Shown here: positions 19,938-45,400 of the stretch, piece after piece
How positions within the stretch are numbered: position 1 is the first letter of the stretch
How the letters are laid out: every line of letters begins with the position of its first letter
Assembly (NCBI GenBank): GCA_030431095.1
Contig: JAUIJU010000006.1
Span: 42,664-106,663, forward strand
DNA from: Gammaproteobacteria bacterium
GTDB taxonomy: Bacteria; Pseudomonadota; Gammaproteobacteria; Xanthomonadales; SZUA-36
Length of the DNA stretch: 64,000 nucleotides
Direction: 5' to 3'
Notes under the pieces: generated by a model
What the model saw: the letters and a program-made list of their open reading frames with translations, nothing else
Told to the model about the DNA's origin: nothing
The model's database searches: none
Made by a program: the position numbers and the translations under genes

Positions 19938-19946
19938 AAGTGGCGT

Positions 19947-20462: not shown

Positions 20463-20491
20463 TTGAGCGAGGGCGGAATTTACCCTAGAAT
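20463..20491 (+). promoter_or_regulatory. Sigma70-like promoter for tRNA-Lys
   Basis: TTGAGC at 20463-20468, 17-nt spacer, TAGAAT at 20486-20491, 26 nt before the tRNA. Confidence 0.65.
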
Positions 20492-20517
20492 TCGCTCCCT
20501 TCGAAAGCACCACCTGG

Positions 20518-20593
20518 GGGCCGTTAGCTCAGTTGGTAGAGCAGTTGACTTTTAATCAATTGGTCGTTGGTTCGAGCCCAACACGGCCCACCA
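20518..20593 (+). tRNA. tRNA-Lys (TTT anticodon), CCA encoded
   Basis: GGGCCGT acceptor pairs with ACGGCCC; AGCTCAGTTGGTAGAGC D-arm; CTTTTAA anticodon loop; GGTTCGAGCC T-arm; ends ACCA. Confidence 0.96.
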
Positions 20594-22101: not shown

Positions 22102-24480
22102 CTACGGGCCTGGGTTTCCCGCCCGCGCCCGCCATTCTTCGAGCATCAACTGGTCCTGCGACGTCCACAGGTCGTTGGCCTTCAGGCGATTTTCACCCAT
22201 CACGATGGCGGCCGTGACGAAGTCGCCTTCGCGGGCGAGAAAAGCGGCCTTGAGTTTCCACAGCAGGTAGTCGTAGCCCGATTCCTGTTCCAGTTGCGCC
22301 AGCAACGGGCGGTACTCGCGCCCGGGCTGGTCCAGCAAGACCTCGAGGATTTCAAAACCGATGTACTGCGCCACGTGCGCTTCGCCGCGGGCCGCGTGGC
22401 CGCCCCGCGCCTCGCGCAGCATCGCCAGTCCTTCGTCCACGCGGCCGCTGCGCACGGCCAGGTGGCCTTCCGCGCGCAGGAATTCGAGGCGGTACTCATC
22501 GCGCAACGACGGGTACTCCTGGTTAAAACGTCGGATCAACAGACGGGTTTCAGCCGGTGCTTCGATCCGCGAGGAAACCAGGATGGCGACGGCCAGGGTG
22601 CGCGGCAGGGCGGCGCGCAGCGCGTCGTCCCGGTCGAACTGTTCCATCATGGTTCGCGTGTGGTCCAGGGCATCGCCGAAGCGCTGGGCCACGTACAGCT
22701 GGTGCACCTTGATGAATTCGCTGAGCACCATGTACATCGGGTTGCCGGATTCCGTCGACAGGTCACGCAGGCGGGCCGCGAAATCCTGTACGCGCTCGAA
22801 GTGGCCCTGCGTGTTCAGGATCTGGGCGCTGATCTGGTAGAAAAACGCCTTTTCATGCACCAGTGAAGCCCGGTCCAGGTACGGCGCGGCGCGGCGCACC
22901 ACCTGCACCCCGGCTTCCCGGTCGTTCAGCGCGTAGTTGACCTCGTTGAGCAGCAGGAAGCCGCGCAGCATGCCGTTGTCGTTGCCTGACTGCTCGTAGA
23001 GCGCCAGGGCCGCCTCGACGTGCCGGCGCAGGTCATCCCAGCGCCGCGCCTGGTCCATCGTCTCCGCCAGTGAGAGGTGAATGTCGGCCACGACATTGGG
23101 CAGGGGAGCGTGCTCCTGGGCCAGGGCCAGCCGTTCCAGCCCCAGCCGCTCCGCCTCGGCGAGTTCGTCCTGCAGGCGGGCGCGCAGCTCCAGGGTGCCC
23201 AGCAGGTCCATGCGCGCCTGTGGGGCCAGCTCCGCCGGTGCGATGGCCAGCGCGCGCTGCAGGCTTTGGGTGGCGGCCTTTTCATCCTGCAGCCTGGCGT
23301 GGGCCAGGCCGATCACGCGGTGGAGTTCGGCGGCAACGGCGGGGCGATGGGCGACGTCGTCACGTTGCAGCAGGGTCTCGCTGGTGGCGATGGCGCGCTG
23401 GAACTCGCCCAGTTCGAGCCGGGTCGAGACCAGTTTCACCCAGGCTTCCAGAAAATCCGGGTCTTTGTTGACCGCGGCCTGGAAGTACTGCGCGGCGGTC
23501 GGCTTGTCGTCCATGCCGAGCAATTCGTGAACGCCCTGCAGGTAACTTTGCAGGGCGTAGGCGTCCACCGGGCCGGCCAGCCGGCTCTCGATCTCCGAGA
23601 GGCGGGCGTGCACCGCCAACTCGTGTCGCAGCCAGCGGTCGGCCGCGGTGAACACGTCGGCGAGCGAATCGCCCTCCAGGCTGGCCCGGGCCACCTCCTC
23701 GCGGTCGTTGCGCAGCATCGCCTCGATCGCGAAGCCCGTTTCGGTCTCCTCGAAGCCGAAGGTGGCGGCGTACTGAACCTGGTCGAAGGTGGTGATCTCG
23801 ATGGCCTGTTGCGTGCTGTCCCCCGAAAGGCCGGTGTCCGGGCGCACGACCAGCGTCTGGATCGCAGGGTCCCGGCGCAGACGCTCGGACAGGTAATCCA
23901 GGCCGCCTTCGCTGAGCCAGCCCGCGTCTTCCCTGGCCGGCAGCAGCGCCAGGCTGATGGTGTGCGCTTGCGATGGGTCAGTTGGGGCGGGACCGGAATC
24001 GGCAACCCCCGGCTCGTCGGCGCCGCGCGTGATCCACCAGGTCAGCGCGAGGCCGGCGACGACCAGCGCGGTCAACACCAGCGCCAGCCGGCGCCCGGCG
24101 CCGCTCCCGGTGGGTTCGGACGTCGCCGGACCCTGGTCGGCGATGGCCGCAGCCCGGGAGACCGGCTCGTTGAATCGGTAACCGATGCCACGGTGGGTTT
24201 CGATGAAAGGGGGGGTGCGGTCCTGGTCGTCGATCAGCCGGCGCACCCGCAGCATCTGCTTGGCCAGGGCGGCATCGGTCACCACCTGGCCTGGCCACGC
24301 GGCCTCGATCAGGTCGTCCTTGGTCAGCACTTCGCCCTGGCGCCGCACCAGCGCCAGCAACAGGTAGTAGAGCTTGGTGCTGACCGGGACCTCTTCGCCG
24401 TCGCGGAACAGGGCCTGCCGCGAACCGGCAAGCCGGTACGCGCCGAAGCTGTAGTCGACGGGTTCCTGGTTGGTGTTCAC
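22102..24480 (-). CDS. Membrane-anchored ToxR/CadC-like winged-helix regulator with long TPR-type C-terminal domain (module copy 1)
   Basis: N-terminal Trans_reg_C pattern (GEVLTKDDLIEAAWPGQVVTDAALAKQMLRVRRLIDDQ...IETHRGIGYRF), single TM LALVLTALVVAGLALTWWI, then TPR-like helices. Confidence 0.85.
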   Translation of the reverse strand: MNTNQEPVDYSFGAYRLAGSRQALFRDGEEVPVSTKLYYLLLALVRRQGEVLTKDDLIEAAWPGQVVTDAALAKQMLRVRRLIDDQDRTPPFIETHRGIGYRFNEPVSRAAAIADQGPATSEPTGSGAGRRLALVLTALVVAGLALTWWITRGADEPGVADSGPAPTDPSQAHTISLALLPAREDAGWLSEGGLDYLSERLRRDPAIQTLVVRPDTGLSGDSTQQAIEITTFDQVQYAATFGFEETETGFAIEAMLRNDREEVARASLEGDSLADVFTAADRWLRHELAVHARLSEIESRLAGPVDAYALQSYLQGVHELLGMDDKPTAAQYFQAAVNKDPDFLEAWVKLVSTRLELGEFQRAIATSETLLQRDDVAHRPAVAAELHRVIGLAHARLQDEKAATQSLQRALAIAPAELAPQARMDLLGTLELRARLQDELAEAERLGLERLALAQEHAPLPNVVADIHLSLAETMDQARRWDDLRRHVEAALALYEQSGNDNGMLRGFLLLNEVNYALNDREAGVQVVRRAAPYLDRASLVHEKAFFYQISAQILNTQGHFERVQDFAARLRDLSTESGNPMYMVLSEFIKVHQLYVAQRFGDALDHTRTMMEQFDRDDALRAALPRTLAVAILVSSRIEAPAETRLLIRRFNQEYPSLRDEYRLEFLRAEGHLAVRSGRVDEGLAMLREARGGHAARGEAHVAQYIGFEILEVLLDQPGREYRPLLAQLEQESGYDYLLWKLKAAFLAREGDFVTAAIVMGENRLKANDLWTSQDQLMLEEWRARAGNPGP

Positions 24481-24602
24481 CCCTTCGATGATCTCCCGGT
24501 CATGCTGGTAACAATTCGGTCTGTTGCTTCCTTACGGCCCGCGCGCCCGGCGCGCCTGCGGTGGATTCATTCGCGCCGGGGACATTAAAACACACGCGAA
24601 GG

Positions 24603-24620
24603 AATGCAATGTCATGCATT
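24603..24620. promoter_or_regulatory. Inverted repeat AATGCA-N6-TGCATT in the divergent intergenic region, containing ATGTCATGCA shared with copy 2
   Basis: Read directly; ATGTCATGCA at 24609-24618 is repeated exactly at 36141-36150. Confidence 0.35.
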
Positions 24621-24718
24621 GTCCGAATCGGCGTCAAGCCAGTGGGCCGGGGGGCAGGCAGCGTGGTATCCGCGCCTTTGTCATAACGGCGAAGGGGTTT
24701 GACCGGGGAGCACGCATC

Positions 24719-27700
24719 ATGGGCATCGCATCGTCCGTCCACGACTTTGCAGGGGCAGTTCACCGGGCGCGCCAGCGCCTGATCACCTTTCTGAAAACCG
24801 GGGTGTTGATGACACTCTGGCTTTCCTCGACCGCCCTGGCTGCGCCCGGCCTGGCGGGGGGGGACGTCACGGCCGGGCCGGGCGACGAAGTGTTCCTCCC
24901 GGTCGACTTCGACGCCGACGGCTCGGCCGTGGCACTTCAGTTCGACGTGTCGTACGACGCCCAGGCCATGACACTGACCAGCGCGACACCGGGCGGCGCC
25001 CTGGTCGATCACGTCCTGGATTTCCAGTCCATCGCGCCGGGCCTGGCGCGCGTCGTGGTGACCAGCGCCAGTCGGGCGGTACTCCTGCCGGGTCGCCTGG
25101 CGGACCTGCGATTCCAGGTTTCGGCACAGGCGGCGCAGGGCGCCTATCCCGCCACCTGGCAGGCGGTGCTGATCTCCGACGACCAGTCACAGTCCCTGCC
25201 GCCCTCGCCGCTGATCGATGGCGTGGTGCGCGTGCAGGTGCCGGTGGTCAACCCGCCACCTCCACCGCCGCCGGCGGCGTCGCCGGGCGGCGGACCGGCG
25301 GTGCCGGTGCCTGGCCTGTCGGCGCTGGGGCTGGCGCTGCTGGGCGCCCTGGTGCTGGGCCTGGCCTGCTTGTTTCTGCGCCACGGCGCGCGCGGGGTCG
25401 TGCTGTCGCTGATGACCGCCAGCGTGTTGCTCAGCTCCGTCGTGCGTGCCCAGGTGCTGCCCGGCGACGCCAACGACGACGGCGAGGTGAACGCCGCCGA
25501 CATTCCGGTGATCGTGGACGAAATCCAGGAGCGCGCAGAGGCGCCGGGCAACCCGGACTGCAACCAGGACCAGCTGGTGAACGTGCTGGACACGGTGTGC
25601 GTGTCGCAATCCGAGCCGCAGCCGGACAACAACCCGCCCAGCCTGGACGCGATCGACGATCAGTTTGTGCGCGAGGGCGACCTTGTGGCCTTTACGGCCA
25701 CCGCCGGCGATCCGGACCTGCCGGGCGATGAATTGAGCTGGCGACTGATGGATGGGCCCGCAGGTTCCCTGGTGGATGCCCGGGAGGGCACGTTCAGCTG
25801 GGCCACCGGGGTGGGCGACGCCGGGGCGCACCCCGTGACGCTGCGCGTCGTCGACCAGTACGGGCTGGCGGACCAGCAGGTCTTCACGGTCAACGTTCGC
25901 GCGCTGGGCGCCGCGCCGGTGCTCGACGCGATCCCCGACCAGGCGCTGGTCTGGGGCGACGCCCTGGCGGTCGACGCCCAGGCCACCGACCCGGATCTGC
26001 CCGATGACACCCTGCAGTTCAGCCTCGCCCAGGCGCCCGGCGGCCTGGCCATCGACGGCGCCAGTGGCGCCATCACCTGGTCGCCCGGCCAGGGAGATCT
26101 CGGGACCCACGACGTCACCGTGGTGGTCACCGACCAGGAAGGCCTGCTGGATTACGGCGCCTTCATCGTCGACGTGCGCGATCCCAATGCCGCGCCGGTG
26201 GCGGCGGACGACGTTTTCGAGGCGCGACTCGGTGTTCCACTCGCCATCGATCCGGCCGGTGTACTGGACAATGACAGCGACCCCAACGGCGATCCGCTGA
26301 CCGCCATCGGGGTCGACCCGGCCGAGCAGGGCGTGCTGACGCTCAATGCCGACGGCAGCTTCGAGTACCTGCTGGAACCGACGGACATCAGTTCCAGCGA
26401 GGTGGAACTGGAAATCTTCTGCGACAACAGCAGAACGCCGGACAGCCTCGGCAGCGAACACGTCGTGGACAGCGAATACCAGGCCAATTACACGCCGATG
26501 GTCGGCGATGTCGACAATGACGGCGAACTGGAAATCGTCGCCAGCGGCTGGGTAGGGGGCGGGCGCAGCTTCGTGGCCGAAATGTGGATCATGAACGCGG
26601 CCGACTGCACCGATGAATTCCACACGGACGGAGCCTTCGAGTCGCTGGGGACCTTCGACCAGGCGCCGCTGGGCCTGCACGACATCGACGGCGACGGCGA
26701 CCTGGAGATCATCGGTTCGCGTGAACGTTACCCGGGCGAGACGGAGAACGACATCGGCGGCTTCGACGGGGAGCACCTGCTCGCCGTTCACCATGACGGC
26801 ACCCCGGCCTGGCCGGGGAATGGCGGCAGCGAGACCACCCTGGTCATGACCGACAACAACTCGCAGACCGGCTATACCCACAGTGGGCCGACCTTCGTCG
26901 ACCTGGAAGGCGACGGGACCATGGAAATCGTCATGGCCGGCGCCATCGGTTTCAACTGGGCGACCCGCTCGTTCGTGGTCGTCTACAACGCCGTGGATGG
27001 CACCATCAAGTGGGAACACCTGGCCGAGGTAAACCAGAGCAACCACGGTGGCGCGCGCATGCCATACGTGGTCGATCTTGACCTGGACGGCACCATGGAA
27101 GTCATCGTCCACAACAGCGTGATCGACCACACGGGGCAACTGGAATTCGTGCTGCCGTCCCTGGTCAATGACGTCAGCACGCTGTTCGAAGGCCACCTGG
27201 TACTGGGCATCGGCAATTTTGACGACGACCCCTACCCGGAACTGGTCGGCCGCGACGCGCACTTCTATTACCGTTTCGAGCACGACGGCACCAAGACCTG
27301 GGAGATTCCCGCGCGGAACAACTCCCTGACCCAGCTATCCGTGGCGGATTTCGACGGCGACGGCGTGCTGGAATTCGCCGATATCGGCTGCACCGACTAT
27401 GTGTACAACTGTGGCACCTTCGCCATCCAGGTGTTCGAGACCTCGGGCGACTGCGCTCCGGACTGCGCTGTCGAGGACCTGCTGATCTGGGACCATGGCG
27501 ACAATCCCGACTGGACGTCGGACTTCCTGCTGGGCCAACGCTCCAACCTGACGGCGTTCGATGCCAACCGCGACGGCGCCTTCGACCTGGTGTACCGCAA
27601 TGACGCGTCGGACACCCTGTACATTTTCGATGGACGCGATGGCAGCGAGCTGGTCTCGGTGCCGGCGCCGGACTACCACCACCGGCAAAGCTTCACCACC

Positions 27701-30700
27701 GTGGTGGACCTGGATGGCGACGGACACGCCGAGATCATCAATTCCTACACCGGCGGGATCACCGGACAGACGGAAATCTGGACCGGCACCGTGGACAACC
27801 CCCTCGGCACGGCCTCCCCGTATCGTCACCAGTGGGGCTTTCACGAGGCCTATGTCAATGACGACCTGACGATCCCGTCCCACCCGGTGCCGCACTGGCT
27901 GCGGCCGGGGCTCAACGGCTGGAACATGATCATGCCGGCCCCCCATCCGCTGGCTGGCACGACGGACCGGTTCACCTACCGGGCCAGTGACGGCGTGTTC
28001 GAGTCCCATCTCGCCACCGTCACCCTGGACATCCTGCCGGCGGGCAATCCACCACGGTTCCTGTCCGAGCCCGATACGCGCACCACGCGCGGTTTTCGCT
28101 ACGGCTACGCCCCCATCGTGGTGGACCCGGACCTGGGCGACGTGGTCAGTTTCCACCTGACGGCGGGCCCGGACGGCATGGGAATCGACCCCGGCACCGG
28201 CGCCATCGACTGGCTGCCGCCATCGGTCGGTGATTACGAAGTCTCGATTCTCGCCACCGACTCCATCGGCTATGCCGCATCCCAGGCGTTCACCCTGGAG
28301 GTGGGTGACCCCGTCACCGTACCCGACGTGGTGGGCATGGCCCTCGCTGTCGCCGAGAGCACGCTGGACGGCGCCAGCCTGGCGCCCGGTCGTGTGCGCC
28401 AGGCCACGCACCCCACGGCGCCGGCCGGCACCGTGTTCGAACAATCGCCGCCCGCCGGATCCGTGGCGCCTTTCGGGGGCGCTGTGGACCTGGCCGTCTC
28501 GCTGGGGCCGTCGCCGGCCGATCGTGACGACGACGGCGACGGCTTCTCGCCGAACCAGGGGGATTGCGACGACGATGACGATGCGACCTATCCCGGGGCG
28601 GCCGATGCGGCGGACGATGCCATCGACCAGGACTGTGACGGCGTCGACGGCAGCGAACCCGTCTCCGGCCTCCTGGTGCAACCCGGGTTGTTACACCTGC
28701 TGGCCGGTGCGAGCGAACGCGCCCAGGCCTGGGCGGAATTCGCCGATGGCTCCGCCCAGTCGGTGACGACCGTCGCGGACTGGAGCAGTGACAATCCCGG
28801 TGTTGCGACGGTTTCCGCTGCCGGCCAGATCGTGGCCGTCGCGGCGGGTTCCGCCACGGTCACCGCGTCCCTGGGGGCCGTGAACGACAGCGTGGCGGTC
28901 ACGGTCACGGCTGTCGACCCCAGCGACGACAACGCCCCGCTCGCGCTGATCTCGGCGCCCGTGACGGGCTCGACCATCACCGCGCCGGTCTCCGTGACCG
29001 GTTCGGCGACGGACGACAACCTGGTGCGCTGGGACCTGACCATCAGGCTGGCGGGCGAGGAGATTGGCGTGTCGCTGGCCGGCGGTACCGGACCGGTGGA
29101 CGACGGCGTTCTGGGTCAACTGGACCCGACGCTCCTGCTCAACGGGGTGTACGTCCTGCGCCTGGCCGTGCTCGACGCGGGCGGTAACCTCAGCGAGGAC
29201 GAAGTCGACATCCTTGTCGACGGTGAAATGAAGGCTGGACATTTTACGCTGACCTTCGAAGATCTCGAGGTGCCGATCGGCGGCTTGCCGCTCACCGTCA
29301 ACCGGATCTACGACAGCCGTGACAAGCGGGTGGGCGACTTTGGCACCGGCTGGCGCCTGGGCGTTGGCGCGGTGGACATGAGCTGTTCCGATCGCCTGTC
29401 CGAAGGCTGGCACGTGACGCGCTCCGGGCTCTCGTATCGCCTGCAGGCCACCCGGCCCCACAGCTGCATGGTGCTGCTGCCCGGCCTGCGCCCCCTGGTG
29501 TTCGACCTGGTGATGTCACCCGATGTGTCGCCGGTGGTGCCGTTTCCGTCCTCCGCGATCCGGGCCCGCTTCGTTCCCAGGGCCGGGGACCAGGGAACGC
29601 TGACCGTCCTGGGCAACGACACCCTGAGCATTTTTGATGCGCAGCCGGGCCCGGCCACCCTCGCGGACGACCTGACCGGTCTGCCCTGGACACCGGAACG
29701 GTTCGTCTACCGCACACCGGAAGGCAGTGAATTCACCATCCGTCCCGGAGATGGCCTCGAACAGGTTCGCGACGCCAATGGCAATACCCTGAACTTCGGC
29801 CCGGATGGCATCACCCATTCGGCCGGCCAGTCCGTCACGTTCGAACGCAATGGCGCCGGCCGGATCACGTCGCTTACGGACCCGAATGGCAACGTGCAGC
29901 GCTACGCTTACGACAGCCACGGCGACCTGGCGCGCCACACGGATGCCACCGGCGCCTCGACGCGCTTTCGTTACGATGCACGCCGTCACCTGGTGAACAT
30001 CACCGACGCCCTGGGCGCCCGCGCGGTCCTCAACGAGTATGACGACCAGGGTCGCCTGGTGGCCACGGTGGACGCCAACGGGCACCGTACCGAGTTCGCG
30101 GTGGATCTCGATGCACGCCAGGTCACGACATTCGATCCGGATGGCCGGTCCCTGGTTCGCGCCTTCGACGACGCGGGTAACATTCTTTCCGAGCAGCGAA
30201 CGGTCACCATCGAGGGCGTACCCACGGTGGCGTTGACCACCTACAGCTACGACGCGGATGGCAGACAGGCTTCGACGGTGGATCCCGACGGCGTCCGCAA
30301 CGAATTCCTCTACGATGCCGAAGGCAACCTGAGTCGCCTGCTCACGATGACGCCTACTGGTGATCTGGCCCTGGAGCAGACCTACGACGACCAGGGTCGC
30401 GTCACCCGGCGTACCGATGTCGGCGGCGAGGTCACCGAAATGGCCTACGACGCACGCGGCAACCTCGTGGAAAGTCGCGATACGTTCGGCGGAACGTATC
30501 GCCATTTCTACGACGCGGCCGGCCGACAGATTGCAACGATCGATGCAAACGGCAACCGTGAAGACAAGGCGTTCACGCCGCAGGGGCGGATCAGCCGACG
30601 AGATCGATTTGCCGCTGACGGAACACACCTGTCAAGAATGGATTTCGACTACGACGCGAACGGCAACCTGGTCGGAACCACGGCGTACGCCGATCCGGTC

Positions 30701-33637: not shown

Positions 33638-35984
33638 CGGTGCTTTCACCTCCGTGCCCCCGCGCCCGGTACGTCTCCAGCAACAACTGGTCCTCCGCGC
33701 GCCACAGCTGGTTGGCGCGCAGTTTGTTCTCTTCCATGACCGCGGCGGCGCGCAGGTAATCGCCGTCGCGGGCCAGGAACTGGGCTTTGAGTCGGTACAG
33801 GAGGTAGTTGTAGCCCCCCTCGGACTCGAGGGTCGACAGCAGCTCCCGGTGGGGGCGTTCAGGGTGATCAAGCTGCGCCTGCAACAGTTCGTAGCCGATG
33901 TAGGTGGCCAGGTGCCTGTGATTGGCTTGCTGGTAACGCTCGCGGCTTTCCTGCAGCAGGCGCAACCCTTCATCGATTTGCCCCTGGCGCAGGGCGATGT
34001 GCGCCTCGGCGCGGCGCAGATCGTTTGAGACCCGTTCACGGGCATCGGGGTAGGCGGCCACGAACTGCTCGATGCGTTCGGCGGCCGTTCGCGGTGGCTC
34101 CGAACGGGCCGACAGGGTGATCAGGATGGCCTCGGTGTCGGGGATCAGGGCGTGTGACGGATTGTCGCGTTTCAGTGCATCGAGCATGACGCGGGCATAG
34201 GTCAGGCCCTGGTCGAACTCTTCCTTGACGTAGTACTGGTGCAACTTGATGAATTCGCTCAGCGTGGTGTAGACCGGGTTGTTTTCCTCCTCGGCCAGCG
34301 CGCGCAGGCGTTCGACCTGGTCGTCCGCCGCTTCGAACTCGCCCATGACGTTGAAGGCCTGCCCGGCCACCGCGAAAAAGTACGCTTTCTCGTAAAAAAC
34401 CGTGGTCTGGTCCAGGAAAGGCTGCGCCTGCCGGGAGGCGCGCGCGGCGCGCTCCATGTCGTTCACGGTGAAGTAGTGATTGGTGGTCAGCCAGTAGGCC
34501 TTGACCAGCCCGTCGGCATTGCCGGTCTGTTCAAACAGGCGCAGGGCGGCGTCGATGTGCGCCCTGGAATCCTCCAACCGTCTTGCCTGGAACAGGATGG
34601 TGGCCAGTTCGATGTGCAACTGGCCGCGAAAATTGGGCAGGGGATAGTGTGCGTCCGCCAGCGCGAGCCGTTCACTGCCGATGGCCGCCGCCGCGTCGAA
34701 CGCCTGGGCCACCACTGCCTGCAATTGCAGGGGGTACAGGCCGGAGATTCGGAGGAACGGGTCGGCCTCGTCTTCGAGCAGCGCACGGGAACGCTCCAGG
34801 TGCTGCTGCGCCGTTTCGTTGTCCCCTTTGCGCATGAGCGCCCGCCCCAGCGTCGTGTGAACCTGCGCCGCCAGGTCGGTGCGGTCGACCACCCCGGGCC
34901 GCTGCAACAGGGTGCGGCTCAGCGCGATGGCCGTGTCAAGCTCACCGGCGTCGACGTGATTTGCGGCCAGTTGCACCCAGGCCAGCAAAAAATCGGGGTC
35001 TTTCCTGACGGCTGCCTGCAGAAACTCGCTGGAAACACGAAAATCGCCGCCGGTGTCGAGTTCGTGCATGGCCTGGAGATAGCTCTGCACCGCGTAGGCA
35101 TCCCGCGAGGGCGGCGGGTGACGGGTATCAACCACCAGGCGTTCGTGGGACGCCACCGTACCGGAGACCCACTGGCTGGCCAGGTCGAACGTCTCACCCA
35201 GGTTTTCGGCCACGAATCGATCGGTGGCCAGAACCCCATCGCGATTCCGCAGTGTCAGGTCCACGACATACCCCTCATCGCTTTCGTCGAAGCTCACCAG
35301 GCAGACATAGCGCAGTTTCCCTGCCGTGGTCAGTTCGATGGCGGCGCGTTCCGGTGAACCACCTTCCAGCAGGAGCGGGTCGGGGTCGATCGCGCTGAAC
35401 CGATCCTGCCCGGCAATCAACTCACTGAGATAATGCGCGCCGCCGGTGTTCAGCCAGTCCTGGCCCGATGCGCCCGGGAGGAACGCGACGCTCACCGGCG
35501 CGGCATCGGCGCTCGGAATGCCGCCCTGCATGGTGGCCGGGGCCAACCACCAGAGCACGGCCACGAGGACGAGCACGGCGGACGTGGCCGCGATCCAGGC
35601 CAGGAGTTTGCGAGAGCGCGAGGTCGACGACGGCGCCGTTCCCGTCCTGACCGCCTGGACCGGCGCCGTGAATCGGTAGCCGATGCCCCGAACCGTCTCG
35701 ATCCAGGGCGGTTCACGGTCCTGGTCCCCGATCAGCTTGCGCACCCGCGTGAGCTGTCGCGCCAGGGCCACGTCAGTCACGATCTGGCCGGGCCAGGCGG
35801 TGGCAGTCAGTGACTCCTTGGACATGACCTCGCCGGCGTGGCTGACCAGCGCCAGCAGAAGCTGGTAGGGCTTGGTGGAAATGGCGACGGGCCGGTTATT
35901 GCGACTGAGGGCCTGGCGGTGGGTGTGCAGGCGAAAACCGCCGAATTCGTAGGCCTGATCCGGTGTTGCGTCCTGCACGCTCAT
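33600..35984 (-). CDS. Membrane-anchored ToxR/CadC-like winged-helix regulator with TPR-type C-terminal domain (module copy 2); ORF extends to 36065
   Basis: GEVMSKESLTATAWPGQIVTDVALARQLTRVRKLIGDQDREPPWIETVRGIGYRF; TM LLAWIAATSAVLVLVAVLWWL; C-terminus closely similar to copy 1. Confidence 0.85.
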   Translation of the reverse strand: MSVQDATPDQAYEFGGFRLHTHRQALSRNNRPVAISTKPYQLLLALVSHAGEVMSKESLTATAWPGQIVTDVALARQLTRVRKLIGDQDREPPWIETVRGIGYRFTAPVQAVRTGTAPSSTSRSRKLLAWIAATSAVLVLVAVLWWLAPATMQGGIPSADAAPVSVAFLPGASGQDWLNTGGAHYLSELIAGQDRFSAIDPDPLLLEGGSPERAAIELTTAGKLRYVCLVSFDESDEGYVVDLTLRNRDGVLATDRFVAENLGETFDLASQWVSGTVASHERLVVDTRHPPPSRDAYAVQSYLQAMHELDTGGDFRVSSEFLQAAVRKDPDFLLAWVQLAANHVDAGELDTAIALSRTLLQRPGVVDRTDLAAQVHTTLGRALMRKGDNETAQQHLERSRALLEDEADPFLRISGLYPLQLQAVVAQAFDAAAAIGSERLALADAHYPLPNFRGQLHIELATILFQARRLEDSRAHIDAALRLFEQTGNADGLVKAYWLTTNHYFTVNDMERAARASRQAQPFLDQTTVFYEKAYFFAVAGQAFNVMGEFEAADDQVERLRALAEEENNPVYTTLSEFIKLHQYYVKEEFDQGLTYARVMLDALKRDNPSHALIPDTEAILITLSARSEPPRTAAERIEQFVAAYPDARERVSNDLRRAEAHIALRQGQIDEGLRLLQESRERYQQANHRHLATYIGYELLQAQLDHPERPHRELLSTLESEGGYNYLLYRLKAQFLARDGDYLRAAAVMEENKLRANQLWRAEDQLLLETYRARGHGGESTVTRTDPVDSGTG

Positions 35985-36140
35985 TCTGCCCCCTGGCCGG
36001 GTCCACGCCGTCGGCGAAGCCCTTGCTTCGCTGGGGCGCGCCGGGCAATCCGTCTCACCGAACATGGATGATTCACATGTATGCCGCGTAACGTCCTGAT
36101 TTCACGGCGCTGTCAATCATTGTCACGCAAATTCAGGCAA

Positions 36141-36150
36141 ATGTCATGCA
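36141..36150. promoter_or_regulatory. ATGTCATGCA motif shared with the copy 1 intergenic region; preceded by TGTCACGCA and TGTCAATCA
   Basis: Exact 10-mer match to 24609-24618 in the equivalent divergent intergenic region. Confidence 0.35.
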
Positions 36151-36226
36151 GGCTTTTCGCGGGGAGGCCACCGTGATTCAGCGCAATCCCGGTCCAGGAG
36201 TTGCGCCAGAAACTGGGAGAGTCACC

Positions 36227-39200
36227 ATGGCAAGCGCTCACGACCGTGTCGGGCATTCGCGTGTCCCTTTCGACCAGGCACATCCTCGCCGACTGCGGCG
36301 TACGAACGTGCCCCGGCGTCGCGACCGGGTCCGGCGCCTGCTGTGTCTGCTGCTGCTTGTCCTTGCCGCCCCGGCGTGGGCGCAAAGCGAACTCCAGGTC
36401 GGAACCGTCACGGCCGGGCCGGGCGACGAGGTTTTCCTCCCAGTTGACTTCGTCACCGACGGCTCGGTCGTGGCACTTCAGTTCGACCTGATCTACGACT
36501 CTGGCGTCCTGGACGTGACAGATACCGCCCCCGGGGCCGCTCTCGTCGATCACGCGCTCGACGCACAGCCGATCGCCCCGGGAAGACTGCGCCTGGTGGT
36601 CACGGCGAACAGCCTGACACCACTGGCGCCTGGACGGCTGCTCGACCTTCGCGTGGCCGTCGATCCACTGGCGGCCCCTGGGGACTATCCGCTGGTATTC
36701 GAGGCCGTGCGTCTCGCCGACGCCCAGGCCCAGCCACTGCAGCCGGATGCGCTGGTGGACGGACGGGTCCGTGTCGCGGCGCCGCCATCTCCCCCACCCC
36801 CCGCTGCGCCGGGCGCCGGCGACGGGGCCGGCGCCGTGCCGGTTCCCGGGTTGTCGATGGCGGGCCTGGCAGCGTTGTTCATGGCGGTGCTGGCATTGGC
36901 GTGGTTGTTCCTTCGCCATGGCGCCCGGGGCGTGGCGCTTTCGGTCATGACCGCCAGTGTCCTGCTCAGCTCGGTGGTTCGCGCCCAGGTTCTGCCCGGG
37001 GACGCCAATGCGGATGGCGAGGTCAACGCCCAGGACATCCCGTTCATCGTCGACGAGATCCAGGAACGCCAGGATGCACCCGGGGACGCGGACTGCACGA
37101 TGGATGGCGCGGTGGATGTCCTCGATGCCGTCTGTGTCCTGCAGCCGGGTGACGATCCGGACCCGGACCCGAATCCGGACAATCGGCCACCGCAACTCGA
37201 CGCCCTGTCAGACCGCCTGGTGCGTGTGGGCGATGCCGTGTCCCTGGTGGCCACGGCTACGGATCCCGACCTGCCCGATGACCGCCTGGCCTGGAGCCTG
37301 AGCCAGGGCCCGGTGGGTACGTCGCTGGCGCAGGTCGACGGCGCCCTGCTGTGGATTCCCTCGGACGACCACGTGGGCGACAACCCGTTTACCGTCCGCG
37401 TCACCGATGCCGCCGGCGCGTGGGACGAGCGGAGCTTCGTGGTCCAGGTCAGCCGGCGTGGCAACCCGCCCCGGCTCGAGGCGCTCACCGACGTGTCGCT
37501 CACGGTGGGCGACAGCCTCGACCTGCTCGCCCGGGCGAGTGACCCGGACCTGCCCGACGATCAGCTGACCTTTGCACTCGAACTCGCACCCGCAGGCCTG
37601 CTGCTGGACCCGGACACCGGCCGGCTGACGTGGGTGCCGGATGCCGGACAGGTTGGTTTCCACGACGTCAGCCTCACGGTGGCGGACCAGGATGGCCTGC
37701 AAGACTTCACCGGGTTCACGGTGGGCGTGTTCGCGGCCAATCGCCCGCCGGAGGGCAGCGCCGACCTGTTCACCGTGGAAATCGGTGGCGTGCTCGCGGT
37801 CGATGCGCCCGGGGTGCTCGACAACGATTCGGATCCGGATGGCGACGCGCTGTCGGCCGTGCTGCTCGACGGGCCCCAGAATGGCGACCTGGCATTCGAT
37901 GCCGATGGCGGCTTCGAGTACCAGTCCCGACGTCCCGAGCCGCTGGACGGCGACCCGCCTTACCTGGAAAACGTCAACCTGTCACTGGAGGCGGTGCCTA
38001 CGCTGGAGCCGTTCAATGTCAGTCACCTGCGCCACCTCGAGCGCATCGTCGACGGCGACCCGTCGACGTCCGGCTCGGCCCCGGGCGGGTTTTACCACCT
38101 GCCGCTCGAGGTGCGCTTCGACGCCGAAGATGTGACCGTACGCGAAGTGCGCATCTTCGGGGACCGGCTGGCCGATACGGCCATTGCCGACAACACTGAG
38201 GCCCAGGTTCGCTTGCTGGACCGCAACGGGGATGAGCTGTATCACAGCGGCGCCATTGCACTGTCCCTGCCCGACCGCGATGCCGTGCTGACCCTGGATC
38301 CGCCGGTGGCGGGCGTGCACGTACTGGAATACCGCGCCACGGCCTGGGACGGACCGGGCGGCCAGGGATTCATCCTGGGCGAACTGGAAATCCTGGGTGA
38401 CGGCACGCGCCAGCGCCTGCCGATGGTCGAGGAATGGCACTGGGACGGGGAGGGCACCGAGCGGCCGGACCAGGAAAACGTGCAGGCCACGCCGGTGGTC
38501 ATCGACCTGGACGATGACGAGGTGCCGGAGGTGGTGTTTGCCGCCGGACTGCGCGCGATCAGCCGCCCGATGGGCTGGGTGCAGATCCTGGACGGCGCCA
38601 CCGGCGAGGAAAAATTCCCGTCCGCGTTCTGCTCCGAGGTGGCCACGCACATGGCCGGCGGAGACATCGACGGAGACGGCTTCAACGAGGTGATCGCCGT
38701 TGCCGGCGAGCCGCTGAACGGGATCTGCCAGGCGCCCAATCCCTATCGCCTGCGCGCCATCGCCCACGACGGTACCGAGAAATGGCTGAGCGAGCCCATC
38801 GAGCGGCCCGCCGGCTGGGGCGCCGCCATCGTGCTGGCCGACCTGGACGGCGACGGCACCTCGGAGATCCTGCACGGGCGCCAGGCGCTGGACCACGAAG
38901 GGCGGCTGCTGTGGACCGCCGAGGGCGTGCTGGCCAACAGCTACCTGCCGGAAGTGGCGGACATCGACCTGGACGGCGAGGTCGAAGTGGTCTACGGCGG
39001 TTCAGTGTATGACCGCTTCGGCGTGCAGGAGTGGACCACGTCCTTCAACAAGGACTGGGCCGCGATCGCCAACTTCGACGATGACCCCTTCGCGGAGATC
39101 TTTGTCAACGGGCCCAACCGCTCGCAACTGTATGAGCATGACGGCCAGGTGGCGTGGGCCAGTTCGTACATCTCCGGTGGGCCGCCCACTGTCGGGGACT

Positions 39201-42200
39201 TTGACGCGGACGGCGCGCCCGAGATCGGCTTTGCGCGCGGCAGCGACTACGTCGTGCTGGAAACGGACGGCAGCCTCAAATGGTCGCGCCGCATCAAGGA
39301 TGGCTCGTCGGGACGCACCGGCAGTTCCCTGTTCGACTTCGATGGCGACGGCCGCATGGAGGTGGTGCAAAGCGACGAGGCCTATTTCCGCATCTGGGAC
39401 GGCGCCACGGGGAACGTTCGGTTCCGGGTGCCGCTGACCTCGATAACCAACACGGAACTGCCCCTGGTGGCGGACGTGGACGGGGACGGCCAGGCCGAGG
39501 TGCTGGTGCCGGCCAACGGCTGGCCCGAGCCCGGCACCGAGGGCGTCTACGTGTTCGGCGGGGCGGAGGACGACTTTGTCCGCGCCCGCCCAATCTGGAA
39601 CCAGCACGGCTACCACGTGACCAACGTGATGCCGGATGGCCGCATTCCCGCCGATGAGCCGCAGAACTGGCTGGTCTCAGGACTCAACCACCACCGCGTC
39701 AACGATTTCCTGCCCGACGAGCGGGCCAGGGCGGACCGTTTCACCTACGCGGCGCACGACGGTGAACTGGCGTCCGAACCGGTCGAGGTGTTCATCGACA
39801 TCGTGCCGGAGCGGTTCCCGCCTGTCATCACCTCCCTGCCGGTCGACCTGGCCAGCCCGGGATTCGAGTACTTTTACGACGTGCAGGCGGAAGACCGCAA
39901 CAAGGATCTGCTGACCTTCGGCCTGGCCGGCGCACCCGCGGGCATGACCATCGACGCCGGCACCGGCCTGCTTCGCTGGATGCCCGGCGAAGACGACCTG
40001 GGCCGCCACCTGGTGGACATCCGGGTGAGCGATCCGGATGGCGCCGAGGCCATCCAGGCGTTTTTCCTGGAGGTGCTGCCCGCGGTGGCAGTGCCGGACG
40101 TGGTCGGTGAAACCGAGGACGACGCAGCCACGCTGCTCGAGGCGGCCACGCTGAGCCCGGGGCGCACCTCCACCGCTTTCGACCCATCGGTCCCGCCGAA
40201 CCACGTCGCCCAACAGCAGCCCCCGGCGGGCTCGGTGGCGCCGGCGGGCGCCCGCGTGGACCTGGTGCTGTCACTGGGCGCGGGTCCGCAGGACACCGAC
40301 GACGATGGCGACGGTTACAGCGAGAACCAGGGCGACTGCGACGACGGGGACGACAGCCTGTACCCGGGCGCCGACGACACGCCAGGGGACGACATCGACC
40401 AGGATTGCGATGGCTTTGACGCCACCGAGCCCTTGAGCGCGCTGCTCGTCGCGCCGGGCGCACTGGACCTGCTGGTCGGTCAAAGCGCCATGGTGCAGGC
40501 TTGGGGTGCGTTTCCCGACGGATCCGCACAGCCGGTGACGTCCCTTGCATCGTGGAGCAGCAACGCCCCGGCCATTGCAACGATATCGGCGGCGGGTGAG
40601 GTCAGCGCCGTGTCCCCGGGAACGGCCGTCATCACTGCGAACCTCGGAGATGAGTCAGGCCAGGTCACGGTCGAGGTGACCGCTGTCGACCTGCAGGACG
40701 ATCAGGCGCCGGTGGTCCGGCTGATCGCCCCGGCGGATGGCGCCCATGTCGCGGGTCCCGTGGACGTTATCGGCACGGTGAACGATGACGCCTTGTATCG
40801 CTGGGAATTGTCCATGCTCCGTTCCGGCGACGCTGAAGCATCGGTGCTGGCCACGGGAGAGGGAGCGGTGCAGGCCGGTACGCTGGGTCAGATTGATCCG
40901 ACGCTCATGCGCAATGGAGCCTATACGCTGCGCCTGGCCGCCTTCGATCGCGGTGGCAACATCTCCGCGGACCAGTTGACGGTGTTGCTCGACGGGGAAA
41001 TGAAAGTGGGTCATTTCACGCTGACGTTCGAGGACCTCAATGTGCCCGTGGGCGGCGTACCGCTCACCGTGAACCGCGTTTACGACAGCCGGGACAAGCG
41101 GGTGGGGGACTTTGGTACGGGCTGGCGGCTGGGTTTCGATACCGTGGAGGTGAGTTGCTCCGCGGACCTATCATCCGGTTGGTACGTCCAGCGCGCAGGC
41201 ATGTCATTCCGGCTGCAGGCGACCCGCCCCCATACCTGCATGATCCTGATTCCCGGGCAACGTCCCATCGTTTTCGATCTCGTGACGACGCCCAGTGTTT
41301 CGCCGATCGTGCCGTTCCCGCCCTTCGCCATCCAGACCGGTTTGGTGCCCCGGGAACCCGCGTTCGGGACGCTCGAAATTCTCGGCAACAGGTCGGTCAG
41401 CATCTTCGATCCACAACCGGGTCCGGCGACGCTGGCGGACGACCTGACAGGCTTGCCCTGGGTGCCGGATCGGTTCGTGTACCGAACCCTGGAGGGCACG
41501 GAATTCACGCTGAGCAGGAATCACGGCCTGGAACGAATTCGTGACGCCAACGGCAATACCGTAACGATCGGATCCGACGGGGTAACGCATTCAGCAGGGC
41601 GTTCGATTTCATTCGAACGCAATCCGAGCGGCAGAATCGTCGCCCTGTCCGACCCCATGGGAGGGGTTCAGCACTATGACTATGACCGTCATGGAGACCT
41701 CTCCCGCCACACGGACGCCGTGGGAGGTGCGACCCGGTACCGGTACGACATCCGGCGAAACCTGGTCAACGTGACCGACGCGCTTGGCGCACGGGCGATT
41801 GTCAACGAATACGACGACCAGGGCCGCCTGATCGCCACGACGGATGCCAATGGGCACCGAACGGAGTTCGCGGTGGACCTGGATGCCCGCCAGTTCGTCA
41901 CCACGGACCCGAACGGCCACCAGGTCGTGCGTTCATTCGATGAATCCGGGAATGTGCTGACCGAGCAGAGAACCCTCACGATCGAGGGCGTTCCCACGGT
42001 CGCATTGACCACCAACAGCTACGACCCTGATGGCAACCAGACCGCGACGGTCGATCCGGACGGGGTGCGCAACACCTACGACTACGATGCCGACCGGAAC
42101 CTGACCCGGCTCACGACCCAGACGGGCGCCGGGGAGATGGCGCTGAGCCTGGCCTACGATGACCAGGGCCGGGTGACGTCCCGGACGGAGTTCAGCGGCG

Positions 42201-45200
42201 AAACCACCCTCATGACCTATGACGTGCGTGGGAACCTGACCGAACGTCGGGACGCATTCGGGGCAGTCACGCGTCACGCCTACGATGCGTCCGGGCGGCG
42301 TGTCGTCGACATCGATCCGAACGGAAACCGCCACGAGACCCGCTATACGGGCGTCGGTCTGGTTCGGCGTCGTGATAAATTCGATGCGTCGGGACAGCAC
42401 CTGTTCCGGATGGACTACGACCACGACGCCAATGGCAGATTGATCGCCACCACGGCCTACGTCGATCCCGAAAACGGCCTGGGACCCGTCATCCGAACGT
42501 ACGCATATGATGCGTCCGGCCGGCGGGTACTGGCCACGGACGCGGCCGGCAATGAATGGCGGTATGAGTATGATGCCGCCGGTCAACGAGTGGCGGAAAT
42601 CGATCCCTTTGGCCAGCGCACGGAATACCGGTACGACCCGGCGGGCCGCGTCATCGCCACGCGGTTCGCGGATGGCACGCAGATTCGTTCCGAGTACGAT
42701 GCGTTCGGCAACGAGGTCCGCTCGGTTGGGCCGGCAGGCCAGGTCACGCTGCATGAATACGACGAGGCCGGCCGTCGAGTTGCGACCGTGAGTCCGGACG
42801 GTCACCGCATCGAGATGGTCTATACGCCGGGTGGTCGACTGTCCGCCGTCATCGACCAGTCCGGCGCGCGCACCGACTACGAGTACGATGACGCCGGGCG
42901 AATCGTCAATGTCATTGGCCCGTCCGTCGAGGTCAATCTCAGTGGCGTGTTCGCGCGACCACAGACGCGCACGCAATACGATGGCAACGGCAACGTCGCG
43001 GCCACGATCGACGCCAATGGATTCGTCACCGGGTTCGCTTACGACCCTGCCGGGCGGGAAACTGGCCGCGTCTTCCCGGATGGAGCGACCATCAGCCAGT
43101 CCCACGATGCCAACGCCAACGTCAACCGCACGGTCGACCCGCTGGGTCTGGCCACCGAGTATCGGTTCGATGGGCTCGACCGCCTGGTGCGCGTTGAACA
43201 GCCGCCGGCATCACCAGGCGATCCTGTTTCGACCGTCAGTACGAGCGCCTATGACCCGCTGGGGAACCGGATTGCCCAGCAGGATGCGCTGGGACGGCTC
43301 ACGCGTTTCACTTACAACCCGTTGGGAGAAGTCACCAGCCGGGTGTTGCCGGGCGGGCAGTCCGAGCATTTCATCTACGAGCGCGGATTGCGCCTGTCTG
43401 AATCCGTGGACTTCAACGGCAGCGCCACCACCATCGAGTACGACGCCATGCACCGTGCCGTGCGGCGGACGTACGGCGGTGGCCTCGTCGAGGAATTCGC
43501 CTATACACCGACCGGCCAGGTGGCGTCCGCGACGGCCGATACCGGAACCACATTCTTTGACTATGACGAACTCGATCGTCTGGTCGAAATACGGCAGGCC
43601 GCCGGCGCAACGGTCGCCTATGCCTATACGCCACGCGGCGAGGTCGCGACCCTGACGGTCGATGGCCGCGAGCTTGCCGCATACGCCTACGACGCGCTTG
43701 GGCGACTGGTCGAAGTACAGACCGGCGAGGGAACCACGCGCTACGGGTACGACCTGGCCGGCAACCAGACGGTCGTGGAGTCAGCGAACGGCACACGGAC
43801 AATGCGGGCATTCGATTCCATGCGCCGGCTCAGCCGGATCCAGGAGATCGATGCGTCCGGTGTGCTCGTGCAGCAGCTGGACTACACGCGAGATGAGCGG
43901 GGCATGCGAGTCGCGACGGACGAGTTGAACGGCAGTCGTGAAACCTACGGCTACGACCAGCTCAACAGGCTCATCTCCCGGGAGCGAACCGGCGTCGGCG
44001 CGATCAGCGAGCAGTTTGAGTTCGATGCCGTCGGCAACCGGACCCGCGTGATCGACGCGACGGGTGACCGGCAATTTTCCTACGATTCCAACGACCGGCT
44101 CTACCAGGCCGGGGACGCCTCACTGGCCTATGACGCGGCCGGGAACCGCACCCGATTTCAATCCGGGAATGTCACCACGGACTACGAATGGAATGATCGT
44201 GGTCTGTTGAGTGCGGTGGAGACGAACGGACAGCGCACCGAGTTCGGCTATGACGCGCTGGGCAACCGGGTGGAGCAGCGCGGCGACTTCGAAGCCCTGG
44301 ACTTTGTCGTCGACATGGCCAGCGTTACGGGCCTGAACCAGGTGGTCGAGCACAGAGACCCGGCGGGCGATGTCCTGGGCGAAACGGTATTCGGCACCCA
44401 GCCACTTCATGCGCGTGCAGGCGGAGAGGTCCGGTTCCTGCATACCGACACGCTCGGCAGCATCACGCTGACCACCGATGCCGACGGTGGCGCGGCGGAG
44501 CCGCATCGATTCGCCAGTTTCGGCCGCGCGGAAACCCCGGAGGCAGCCCAATTGCCCCTGGGCTTCACCGGCCAGCAATTTGACCGCGAGACCGGCCTGC
44601 AGTACCTGCGCGCCCGATACTATGACCCCGGCACGGGTGTGTTTCTGTCCGAAGACCCCTTGCTCGGAAACCTGGCTGACCCCGTCACGCGTCACCGGTA
44701 TCTCTATGCGGCATCGAACCCGGTAAACTTCATCGACCCGACGGGGGAATACTCACTGGCCTCCCTGTCCGTCAGCCAGTCGATTTCCAACGTGCTCAAG
44801 GCCACCACGGCCGCAGGCCTGTTCTGCTCGGCGCTGGGCGCCACGGAGAACACCGCGACCCTGAAGGCCCTGTTCAACCTCGCCGTAACGGGCGCCAAGT
44901 ACGCCAATTCGGGGAGCCTGCCCAAGGATGCCACGGCCACCTTGCTGGATATCGACGACCCGTCGAGCCGGGTGGGCATTCAGAAGCTCAAGGTCGAACT
45001 CACGGCGAAAGGCGTCATGTCGGTGTCGGCGAAAAGCGACGGCAAACCGGAGGTGCGGTTCAAGCTCAATCTGAAAACCGGCCGTGTTTACGGCAAGAGC
45101 GCCGGGGAATTCGATGCGACCCTCGTCAAGTTGCGCAAGTGTGGCGGCGGCGTCGACGTCAAGCTCGAGTTGCTGGCCGAGGCAGACGGTAAAGTCGGCA

Positions 45201-45400
45201 AGGTCTCGGATCTGGATTTCGGCGCCCAGGCGGATTCCCCCACCGGATTCAGGGTCATCGGCGAATTCATCCTCGGCCCGGCGAGCATCAAGAAGTGGAC
45301 GTTCGCGGAGGTTCCGCCCGATGGCATCGAGAGCCTGTTCCGTGACATCGAGAATCGAAAGACGTCCTTCATTCTGTCACGTTACCAATTGAACCCGTAA
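36227..45400 (+). CDS. Giant secreted multidomain RHS/YD-repeat protein, about 3057 aa (module copy 2)
   Basis: RBS-like GGGAGA before ATG; signal peptide RLLCLLLLVLAAPAWAQ; same domain order as copy 1; RHS core GLQYLRARYYDPGTGVFLSEDPLLGNLADPVTRHRYLYAASNPVNFIDPTG. Confidence 0.93.
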   Translation: MASAHDRVGHSRVPFDQAHPRRLRRTNVPRRRDRVRRLLCLLLLVLAAPAWAQSELQVGTVTAGPGDEVFLPVDFVTDGSVVALQFDLIYDSGVLDVTDTAPGAALVDHALDAQPIAPGRLRLVVTANSLTPLAPGRLLDLRVAVDPLAAPGDYPLVFEAVRLADAQAQPLQPDALVDGRVRVAAPPSPPPPAAPGAGDGAGAVPVPGLSMAGLAALFMAVLALAWLFLRHGARGVALSVMTASVLLSSVVRAQVLPGDANADGEVNAQDIPFIVDEIQERQDAPGDADCTMDGAVDVLDAVCVLQPGDDPDPDPNPDNRPPQLDALSDRLVRVGDAVSLVATATDPDLPDDRLAWSLSQGPVGTSLAQVDGALLWIPSDDHVGDNPFTVRVTDAAGAWDERSFVVQVSRRGNPPRLEALTDVSLTVGDSLDLLARASDPDLPDDQLTFALELAPAGLLLDPDTGRLTWVPDAGQVGFHDVSLTVADQDGLQDFTGFTVGVFAANRPPEGSADLFTVEIGGVLAVDAPGVLDNDSDPDGDALSAVLLDGPQNGDLAFDADGGFEYQSRRPEPLDGDPPYLENVNLSLEAVPTLEPFNVSHLRHLERIVDGDPSTSGSAPGGFYHLPLEVRFDAEDVTVREVRIFGDRLADTAIADNTEAQVRLLDRNGDELYHSGAIALSLPDRDAVLTLDPPVAGVHVLEYRATAWDGPGGQGFILGELEILGDGTRQRLPMVEEWHWDGEGTERPDQENVQATPVVIDLDDDEVPEVVFAAGLRAISRPMGWVQILDGATGEEKFPSAFCSEVATHMAGGDIDGDGFNEVIAVAGEPLNGICQAPNPYRLRAIAHDGTEKWLSEPIERPAGWGAAIVLADLDGDGTSEILHGRQALDHEGRLLWTAEGVLANSYLPEVADIDLDGEVEVVYGGSVYDRFGVQEWTTSFNKDWAAIANFDDDPFAEIFVNGPNRSQLYEHDGQVAWASSYISGGPPTVGDFDADGAPEIGFARGSDYVVLETDGSLKWSRRIKDGSSGRTGSSLFDFDGDGRMEVVQSDEAYFRIWDGATGNVRFRVPLTSITNTELPLVADVDGDGQAEVLVPANGWPEPGTEGVYVFGGAEDDFVRARPIWNQHGYHVTNVMPDGRIPADEPQNWLVSGLNHHRVNDFLPDERARADRFTYAAHDGELASEPVEVFIDIVPERFPPVITSLPVDLASPGFEYFYDVQAEDRNKDLLTFGLAGAPAGMTIDAGTGLLRWMPGEDDLGRHLVDIRVSDPDGAEAIQAFFLEVLPAVAVPDVVGETEDDAATLLEAATLSPGRTSTAFDPSVPPNHVAQQQPPAGSVAPAGARVDLVLSLGAGPQDTDDDGDGYSENQGDCDDGDDSLYPGADDTPGDDIDQDCDGFDATEPLSALLVAPGALDLLVGQSAMVQAWGAFPDGSAQPVTSLASWSSNAPAIATISAAGEVSAVSPGTAVITANLGDESGQVTVEVTAVDLQDDQAPVVRLIAPADGAHVAGPVDVIGTVNDDALYRWELSMLRSGDAEASVLATGEGAVQAGTLGQIDPTLMRNGAYTLRLAAFDRGGNISADQLTVLLDGEMKVGHFTLTFEDLNVPVGGVPLTVNRVYDSRDKRVGDFGTGWRLGFDTVEVSCSADLSSGWYVQRAGMSFRLQATRPHTCMILIPGQRPIVFDLVTTPSVSPIVPFPPFAIQTGLVPREPAFGTLEILGNRSVSIFDPQPGPATLADDLTGLPWVPDRFVYRTLEGTEFTLSRNHGLERIRDANGNTVTIGSDGVTHSAGRSISFERNPSGRIVALSDPMGGVQHYDYDRHGDLSRHTDAVGGATRYRYDIRRNLVNVTDALGARAIVNEYDDQGRLIATTDANGHRTEFAVDLDARQFVTTDPNGHQVVRSFDESGNVLTEQRTLTIEGVPTVALTTNSYDPDGNQTATVDPDGVRNTYDYDADRNLTRLTTQTGAGEMALSLAYDDQGRVTSRTEFSGETTLMTYDVRGNLTERRDAFGAVTRHAYDASGRRVVDIDPNGNRHETRYTGVGLVRRRDKFDASGQHLFRMDYDHDANGRLIATTAYVDPENGLGPVIRTYAYDASGRRVLATDAAGNEWRYEYDAAGQRVAEIDPFGQRTEYRYDPAGRVIATRFADGTQIRSEYDAFGNEVRSVGPAGQVTLHEYDEAGRRVATVSPDGHRIEMVYTPGGRLSAVIDQSGARTDYEYDDAGRIVNVIGPSVEVNLSGVFARPQTRTQYDGNGNVAATIDANGFVTGFAYDPAGRETGRVFPDGATISQSHDANANVNRTVDPLGLATEYRFDGLDRLVRVEQPPASPGDPVSTVSTSAYDPLGNRIAQQDALGRLTRFTYNPLGEVTSRVLPGGQSEHFIYERGLRLSESVDFNGSATTIEYDAMHRAVRRTYGGGLVEEFAYTPTGQVASATADTGTTFFDYDELDRLVEIRQAAGATVAYAYTPRGEVATLTVDGRELAAYAYDALGRLVEVQTGEGTTRYGYDLAGNQTVVESANGTRTMRAFDSMRRLSRIQEIDASGVLVQQLDYTRDERGMRVATDELNGSRETYGYDQLNRLISRERTGVGAISEQFEFDAVGNRTRVIDATGDRQFSYDSNDRLYQAGDASLAYDAAGNRTRFQSGNVTTDYEWNDRGLLSAVETNGQRTEFGYDALGNRVEQRGDFEALDFVVDMASVTGLNQVVEHRDPAGDVLGETVFGTQPLHARAGGEVRFLHTDTLGSITLTTDADGGAAEPHRFASFGRAETPEAAQLPLGFTGQQFDRETGLQYLRARYYDPGTGVFLSEDPLLGNLADPVTRHRYLYAASNPVNFIDPTGEYSLASLSVSQSISNVLKATTAAGLFCSALGATENTATLKALFNLAVTGAKYANSGSLPKDATATLLDIDDPSSRVGIQKLKVELTAKGVMSVSAKSDGKPEVRFKLNLKTGRVYGKSAGEFDATLVKLRKCGGGVDVKLELLAEADGKVGKVSDLDFGAQADSPTGFRVIGEFILGPASIKKWTFAEVPPDGIESLFRDIENRKTSFILSRYQLNP
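36397..36783 (+). other. Cohesin-like domain of RHS giant 2
   Basis: VGTVTAGPGDEVFLPVDFVTDGSVVALQFDLIYDSGVLDVTDTAPGAAL. Confidence 0.6.
36832..36990 (+). other. VPGLS plus TM segment followed by second signal-peptide-like segment (RHS giant 2)
   Basis: VPVPGLSMAGLAALFMAVLALAWLFLRHGARGVALSVMTASVLLSSVVRAQ. Confidence 0.5.
36991..37143 (+). other. Dockerin-like domain of RHS giant 2
   Basis: GDANADGEVNAQDIPFIVDEI and DCTMDGAVDVLDAVCVLQ. Confidence 0.65.
37945..39732 (+). other. Carbohydrate-binding-like segment plus FG-GAP-like propeller inserted within a cadherin-like domain (RHS giant 2)
   Basis: VIDLDDDEVPEVVFAAG, GGDIDGDGFNEVIAVAG, LADLDGDGTSEILHG, VADIDLDGEVEVVYGG, VGDFDADGAPEIGFARG, VADVDGDGQAEVLVP; preceded by a ~180-aa beta-rich segment with no counterpart in copy 1. 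Confidence 0.65.
40083..40695 (+). other. PASTA-like, MopE-like and BIG2-like domains (RHS giant 2)
   Basis: VAVPDVVGETEDDAATLLEAATLSPG; DTDDDGDGYSENQGDCDDGDDSLYPGADDTPGDDIDQDCDG; LASWSSNAPAIATISAAGEVSAVSPGTAVITAN. Confidence 0.65.

Follow-up and report, generated by a model that had tools for sequence, protein, structure and literature searches.

The stretch of DNA analysed here, referred to below as the window (64,000 nucleotides), contains two tandem copies of a divergent gene pair. Each consists of a minus-strand gene for a regulator with a winged helix-turn-helix domain, a transmembrane (TM) segment and a TPR region, and a plus-strand gene for an RHS protein of about 3,000 residues, called a giant below. 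We propose that these form a two-copy regulator-operator-exoprotein module in which each regulator probably binds an array of short direct repeats between the two genes and activates the divergent giant gene, both binding and activation being read from sequence comparisons. The targets of one-component membrane regulators are usually unknown. Here, because the genes lie back to back and have a repeated DNA site in common, regulator, predicted operator and likely target gene constitute one recurring unit which can be read straight from the sequence. The paired giants are found in uncultured gammaproteobacteria.

Organisation of the locus

The first regulator, R1, occupies positions 22102-24480 (minus strand) and is followed by the first giant, G1, in an ORF at 24524-33637 (plus strand). 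This ORF is open from a TTG at 24524, but the ATG at 24719 is a likelier start and gives a protein of 2,972 residues (24719..33637). The ORF of the second regulator, R2, covers 33600-36065 (minus strand) with a likelier ATG start at 35984 (33600..35984), and that of the second giant, G2, covers 36146-45400 (plus strand) with a likelier ATG start at 36227 (36227..45400; 3,057 residues). The likelier starts of G1, R2 and G2 were chosen from the position of Shine-Dalgarno sequences, conserved N-termini and signal peptides. G1 and R2 are convergent and overlap by 38 bp at the G1 stop and the R2 3′ end, while about 220 bp follow G2. The two adjacent units of identical layout that a preliminary description had recognised in the window are present at the coordinates given there.

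The region ahead of the module (10239-20593) has an ordinary gene order comprising ruvC/ruvA/ruvB, ybgC, tol-pal and queE/queC-like genes, named by reading their translations, and this run is closed by a tRNA-Lys gene located just before the module. Integration at this neighbouring tRNA-Lys gene was considered and rejected, since its 3′ end has no second copy in the window and the GC content is uniform.

The regulators

R1 and R2 are 41% identical in an alignment over 781 residues. Both match Trans_reg_C (Pfam E-values of 1.5e-15 and 1.6e-16) and TPR models, and each has a single hydrophobic TM segment in hydropathy profiles, from which the topology was inferred. This agrees with the preliminary description, which had given both proteins the same domain order and alignable ends. 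In R1 (minus strand), the cytoplasmic winged helix is encoded at about 24172-24399, the TM segment at about 24031-24087 and the periplasmic alpha/beta and TPR region at about 22105-23583. In profile comparison the winged helix matches the structure of the CadC DNA-binding domain (5ju7; E-value of 1.9e-13), and the recognition helices of R1 and R2, VVTDAALAKQMLRVRR and IVTDVALARQLTRVRK, are nearly identical. By these features R1 and R2 are one-component membrane proteins of the ToxR/CadC type, for which promoter control is predicted from the arrays described below. They resemble CadC/ToxR-like regulators in their Trans_reg_C winged helix, single TM helix and periplasmic sensor, but their sensor, at about 640 residues, is long and contains TPRs.

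Recurrence of the divergent pair

The N-terminal module of the giants was found in seven copies, spread over five of the 39 family genomes analysed. All seven are divergent from a full-length-type regulator homologue (two being cut by contig ends), and reading of the contigs agrees with this. An eighth regulator-giant pair occurs in another family of the order (genome G054), so that 8/8 giant modules are paired. The tandem order can also be seen in a second species of the genus, where a giant tail is convergent on the second regulator. The recurrence of the divergent pairing, which the preliminary description had proposed to count across genomes, therefore holds in two families, but the pairing is not obligate: three genomes (G121, G100 and G113) keep a related regulator with neither giant nor array, and two other lineages (a Halieaceae MAG and G069) possess giants whose front end is the same but which have no regulator. 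In 369 sampled genomes of the wider class, the window's own aside, only matches to the cohesin region were obtained and no full module.

Predicted operator arrays

All eight intergenic regions carry an array of TGTCAT-like half-sites (consensus AATGTCATGC), arranged as direct repeats on the strand of the giant gene and directed at it, with a spacing of 10-10-11 bp (10-12 for the a-type). The array preceding G1 lies at 24608..24641 (plus strand; half-sites at 24610, 24620 and 24632, spacing 10 and 12) and that preceding G2 at 36109..36151 (plus strand; half-sites at 36111, 36121, 36131 and 36142, spacing 10-10-11). The distance from array to giant start is about 80-125 bp in seven of the eight loci. 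Since the motif was first noticed by eye, we carried out leave-one-out scans, which reduce the resulting bias but do not remove it; the array left out ranked first in its own contig, or second in the case of both window loci. With a matrix built only from four loci of other genera, the two best separate matches among about 128,000 positions of the window were the two intergenic regions, with scores of 23.4 (36119) and 21.0 (24608) compared with a maximum of 12.9 over about 240,000 other positions of the genome, the scan having covered about 120 kb of the G000 genome. One of 40 column-shuffled control matrices likewise ranked both intergenic regions top. A -10 element at a fixed distance of 21 bp is weak in GC-rich loci, and a simple sigma-70 promoter scan of the R1 surroundings and the first intergenic region found nothing.

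PhoB-family sites are direct repeats of the form CTGTCAT-N4-CTGTCAT, which recur about every 11 bp (PMC4832192). The arrays resemble this pho box in their TGTCAT-like direct repeats and in their period, also near 11 bp, but comprise 3-5 repeats with 10-10-11/12 spacing, and unlike the PhoB/OmpR regulators those found here are membrane-bound and have neither receiver domain nor kinase. CadC, in contrast, is described as having two TTAxxxxT sites in head-to-head orientation (PMC5430869), whereas the operator predicted here is a head-to-tail array of direct repeats.

Similar arrays accompany relatives of the regulators that have a different secreted partner. In another family of the order, a scan of 12 loci whose regulator is divergent from a secreted partner found 3-5 WGTC repeats at 10-12 bp in 11 of them, and no array in six regulator loci where such a partner is missing. 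At one locus (L086, f8) the partner is present and the array absent, and two further loci with a secreted partner (L096 and L098), covered by the matrix scan only, gave weak matrix scores. The two giants lacking a regulator have no array. The array logic in these relatives could make target prediction possible for the whole branch of regulators. Most of the divergent partners in this other family (L087-L095, L097 and L099) are either choice-of-anchor-like or belong to a VGSxFxYQGxL type of secreted protein about 330 residues long, and the TGTC arrays have a period of about 11 bp.

Taken with the recurrent divergent pairing, the giant-directed arrays make direct transcriptional control of the giant gene well supported by comparison. 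The proposal that each regulator is a dedicated switch for its own giant stands only in part: the pairing in all eight modules and the arrays favour control of the giant promoter, but exclusivity is at odds with the like operators and near-identical recognition helices of the two units. These helices, together with the common half-site, make cross-regulation between R1, R2 and both arrays likely.

Age of the duplication and co-variation of the partners

At 1,006 conserved fourfold-degenerate codons of G1 and G2, the third base is the same in 46%, and the two genes have no exact run of at least 30 bp in common, which indicates that the duplication is old, as had been suggested earlier from the wide divergence of third codon positions. 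It is also older than the split from the second species of the genus, since regulator identities between the two species are 71% (a-a) and 53% (b-b) compared with 41% (a-b).

Identities of the regulators and of the giant N-termini co-vary (Mantel r 0.63; 35 of 40,320 permutations). Co-evolution, for which the preliminary description had proposed trees of both partners, finds incomplete agreement there: the giant N-termini of the two G000 copies cluster at 99/99, whereas the regulators pair a-a and b-b. The giants are mosaic by segment: their cohesin and FG-GAP segments are nearer the orthologue, whereas in DUF6531 and the first RHS segment the tandem copy is the nearer one. G2 contains a discoidin-like insert, and its FG-GAP module is nearer to the giants of other lineages than to G1, which suggests module exchange. 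For DUF6531 and RHS, the closer match between a and b copies could stem either from an ancient exchange or from slow evolution. A recent gene conversion of the giants was rejected, since exact runs of at least 30 bp are lacking and synonymous sites are near saturation.

Front end of the giants

The giants begin with a signal peptide and a cohesin. The motif VPVPGLS comes next, then two hydrophobic helices joined by the basic loop RHGARG, the first a TM helix and the second ending in VRA-Q, and then a two-loop dockerin. Neither this front end nor the operator arrays had been noted in the preliminary description. In G1 (plus strand), the cohesin is encoded at 24860..25228 (Pfam E-value of 9e-13), the sorting-like signal (VPVPGLS, TM1, RHGARG, TM2 ending VRA-Q) at 25301..25447 and the type I-like dockerin, with two Ca-loop patterns, at 25460..25603. 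The equivalent positions in G2 (plus strand) are 36389..36775 for the cohesin (Pfam E-value of 3.4e-7), 36836..36982 for the sorting-like signal (VPVPGLS, TM1, RHGARG and TM2) and 36995..37138 for the dockerin. Both signals were delimited with NF033207 and hydropathy.

Identification of the cohesin is secure: it matches profiles of solved cohesins in the PDB, its AF2 model has a pLDDT of 92-98, and each of the 50 best Foldseek matches shown is a cohesin, a cohesin-like module or a chain containing a cohesin. The dockerin gives weaker profile matches (Pfam E-value of 0.004, below the gathering score; PDB dockerin E-value of 0.0076), and its Ca-loop pattern is largely kept in seven aligned giants, with loop 2 of G2 differing at one position. 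When cohesin and dockerin were modelled within one chain, AF2 gave a pTM of 0.53 with a low-confidence, poorly folded dockerin, so that intramolecular docking is unsupported by the model. Cellulosomal pairs have the same cohesin fold and two-loop dockerin, but the giants carry both on a single chain, one on each side of the predicted site of processing, and neither a cellulosomal enzyme nor a scaffoldin was seen at the locus.

The hairpin of G1 and G2 matches the midcut-by-XrtH model NF033207 at profile positions 33-82, which span both TM helices, with scores of 20.3 and 21.6 bits, under the curated cut-off of 45. The giants resemble the proteins of this family in having a signal peptide, a short stub, an IPTL-like motif, a TM helix, a basic loop, a second TM helix and an exported body, and in the presence of XrtH in the same genome. 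They differ from them in that the stub is a cohesin and the body, of about 2,700 residues, begins with a dockerin. The XrtH of the window's genome scores 197.6 bits against a cut-off of 86, and the genome also encodes two IPTL-CTERM proteins over cut-off and one canonical midcut protein of giant-like topology. Within the order XrtH is widespread, being found in 44 of 56 sampled genomes, and its presence in this genome is therefore a weak argument. The literature searched contained nothing relevant on XrtH or midcut proteins, including the role of mid-protein signals, and one paper on IPTL-CTERM.

Body and tail of the giants

G1 and G2 align end to end with 53% identity and have the same Pfam order, namely cohesin, dockerin, Ig-like, FG-GAP, PASTA, MopE, Big_2, DUF6531, RHS/YD repeats, RHS core and tail. 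The common long domain order reported earlier is thereby upheld, save that G2 has the discoidin-like insert of about 180 residues (37931..38470, plus strand), also found in the G027 and G069 giants and absent from G1, and a different FG-GAP module. In G1 (plus strand), the FG-GAP region (26399..28018) is the part diverging fastest, and DUF6531, the RHS/YD repeats and the RHS core lie at 29204..32974. The C-terminal tail, of about 220 residues, is encoded at 32966..33634 in G1 and at 44738..45397 in G2 (plus strand); it belongs to no known family, and that of G1 is 77% identical to that of G2. In DUF6531, YD repeats, RHS core and variable tail, the giants resemble other secreted RHS/YD-repeat proteins, from which they are set apart by their front end and by having no recognisable toxin and no immunity gene.

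Proposed mechanism and alternative explanations

In the scheme that we favour, the regulator, with its cytoplasmic winged helix, single TM helix and periplasmic alpha/beta and TPR sensor, would bind head-to-tail on the TGTCAT-like array in the shared intergenic region, switching on the divergent giant gene and probably also controlling its own. The giant would be exported by means of its signal peptide, and the TM hairpin would separate the cohesin from the dockerin/Ig/FG-GAP/RHS body, with both of them lying outside the cytoplasm. Cuts at the sorting motif by XrtH and after TM2 by signal peptidase would then free the dockerin-RHS body from a cohesin stub that stays anchored and could recapture it. 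We infer the mid-protein cleavage and the cohesin-dockerin retention with much less certainty than the regulatory part. The complete version, in which XrtH cuts the giant, the body of 2,700 residues is recaptured in a Ca-dependent manner, a TPR switch reads the state of export or of the surface, and the TGTCAT array provides control, we consider rather unlikely to hold in all its parts. Since cohesin and dockerin flank the predicted cut, the giants nevertheless offer a natural test of the role of a mid-protein XrtH signal.

There is some chance, if clearly short of even, that the hairpin does no more than anchor the protein in the membrane or is an internal signal peptide that has been fused in; the giant would then remain a single chain, tethered in the inner membrane and with its two flanks in the periplasm, and XrtH would not be involved. 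A TM hairpin does not require a protease, the NF033207 scores are under cut-off, and the Halieaceae giant retains its hairpin in a genome without an XrtH match; yet XrtH is present in all seven other giant-bearing genomes tested, the paired giants conserve the proline motif, the basic loop and the R-A ahead of the dockerin, a canonical IPTL motif is present in the f7 giant, and the canonical midcut protein of the window's genome has the same layout. Uncertainty of a different kind concerns the regulators, which might act mainly elsewhere, the divergent adjacency being inherited gene order and the array serving autoregulation. The arrays do sit between both genes, and the regulators of G121, G100 and G113 persist alone, but the directionality of the arrays, their distance of about 80-125 bp from the giant start in seven of the eight loci and their retention beside a different secreted partner, with none where such a partner is missing, make this account an improbable one.

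A role for the giants as RHS polymorphic toxins, with the tail as a toxin tip for other cells and the regulator governing its deployment, is very improbable. The giants have an RHS core and a variable C-terminal tip, and the tails following the core differ among genera, as such a role would lead one to expect; within the tandem pair, however, the tail is the best-conserved part (77-79%). The tails of four lineages gave no Pfam match at E-values up to 10, except for one at chance level, and the AF2 model of the tail (pLDDT 46) is too poor for interpretation. No immunity gene lies directly downstream, where the G1-R2 overlap and the short gap after G2 leave no space for one. A polymorphic toxin with a cognate immunity gene was accordingly rejected.

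Giants at other loci

The Halieaceae giant (L050, 9062-18793) has the cohesin-hairpin-dockerin-RHS layout, and its nearest upstream gene, on the same strand, encodes an ECF sigma factor (TIGR02999). In the giant of G027, a single in-frame stop (L038, 10635-10639) divides the gene into two open frames. The G069 giant (3,123 residues) is preceded by two Omp85/BamA-like ORFs, maybe representing one broken gene, which possibly provide its route to the outer membrane; ORFs and giant together lie at L143, 2192-13863.
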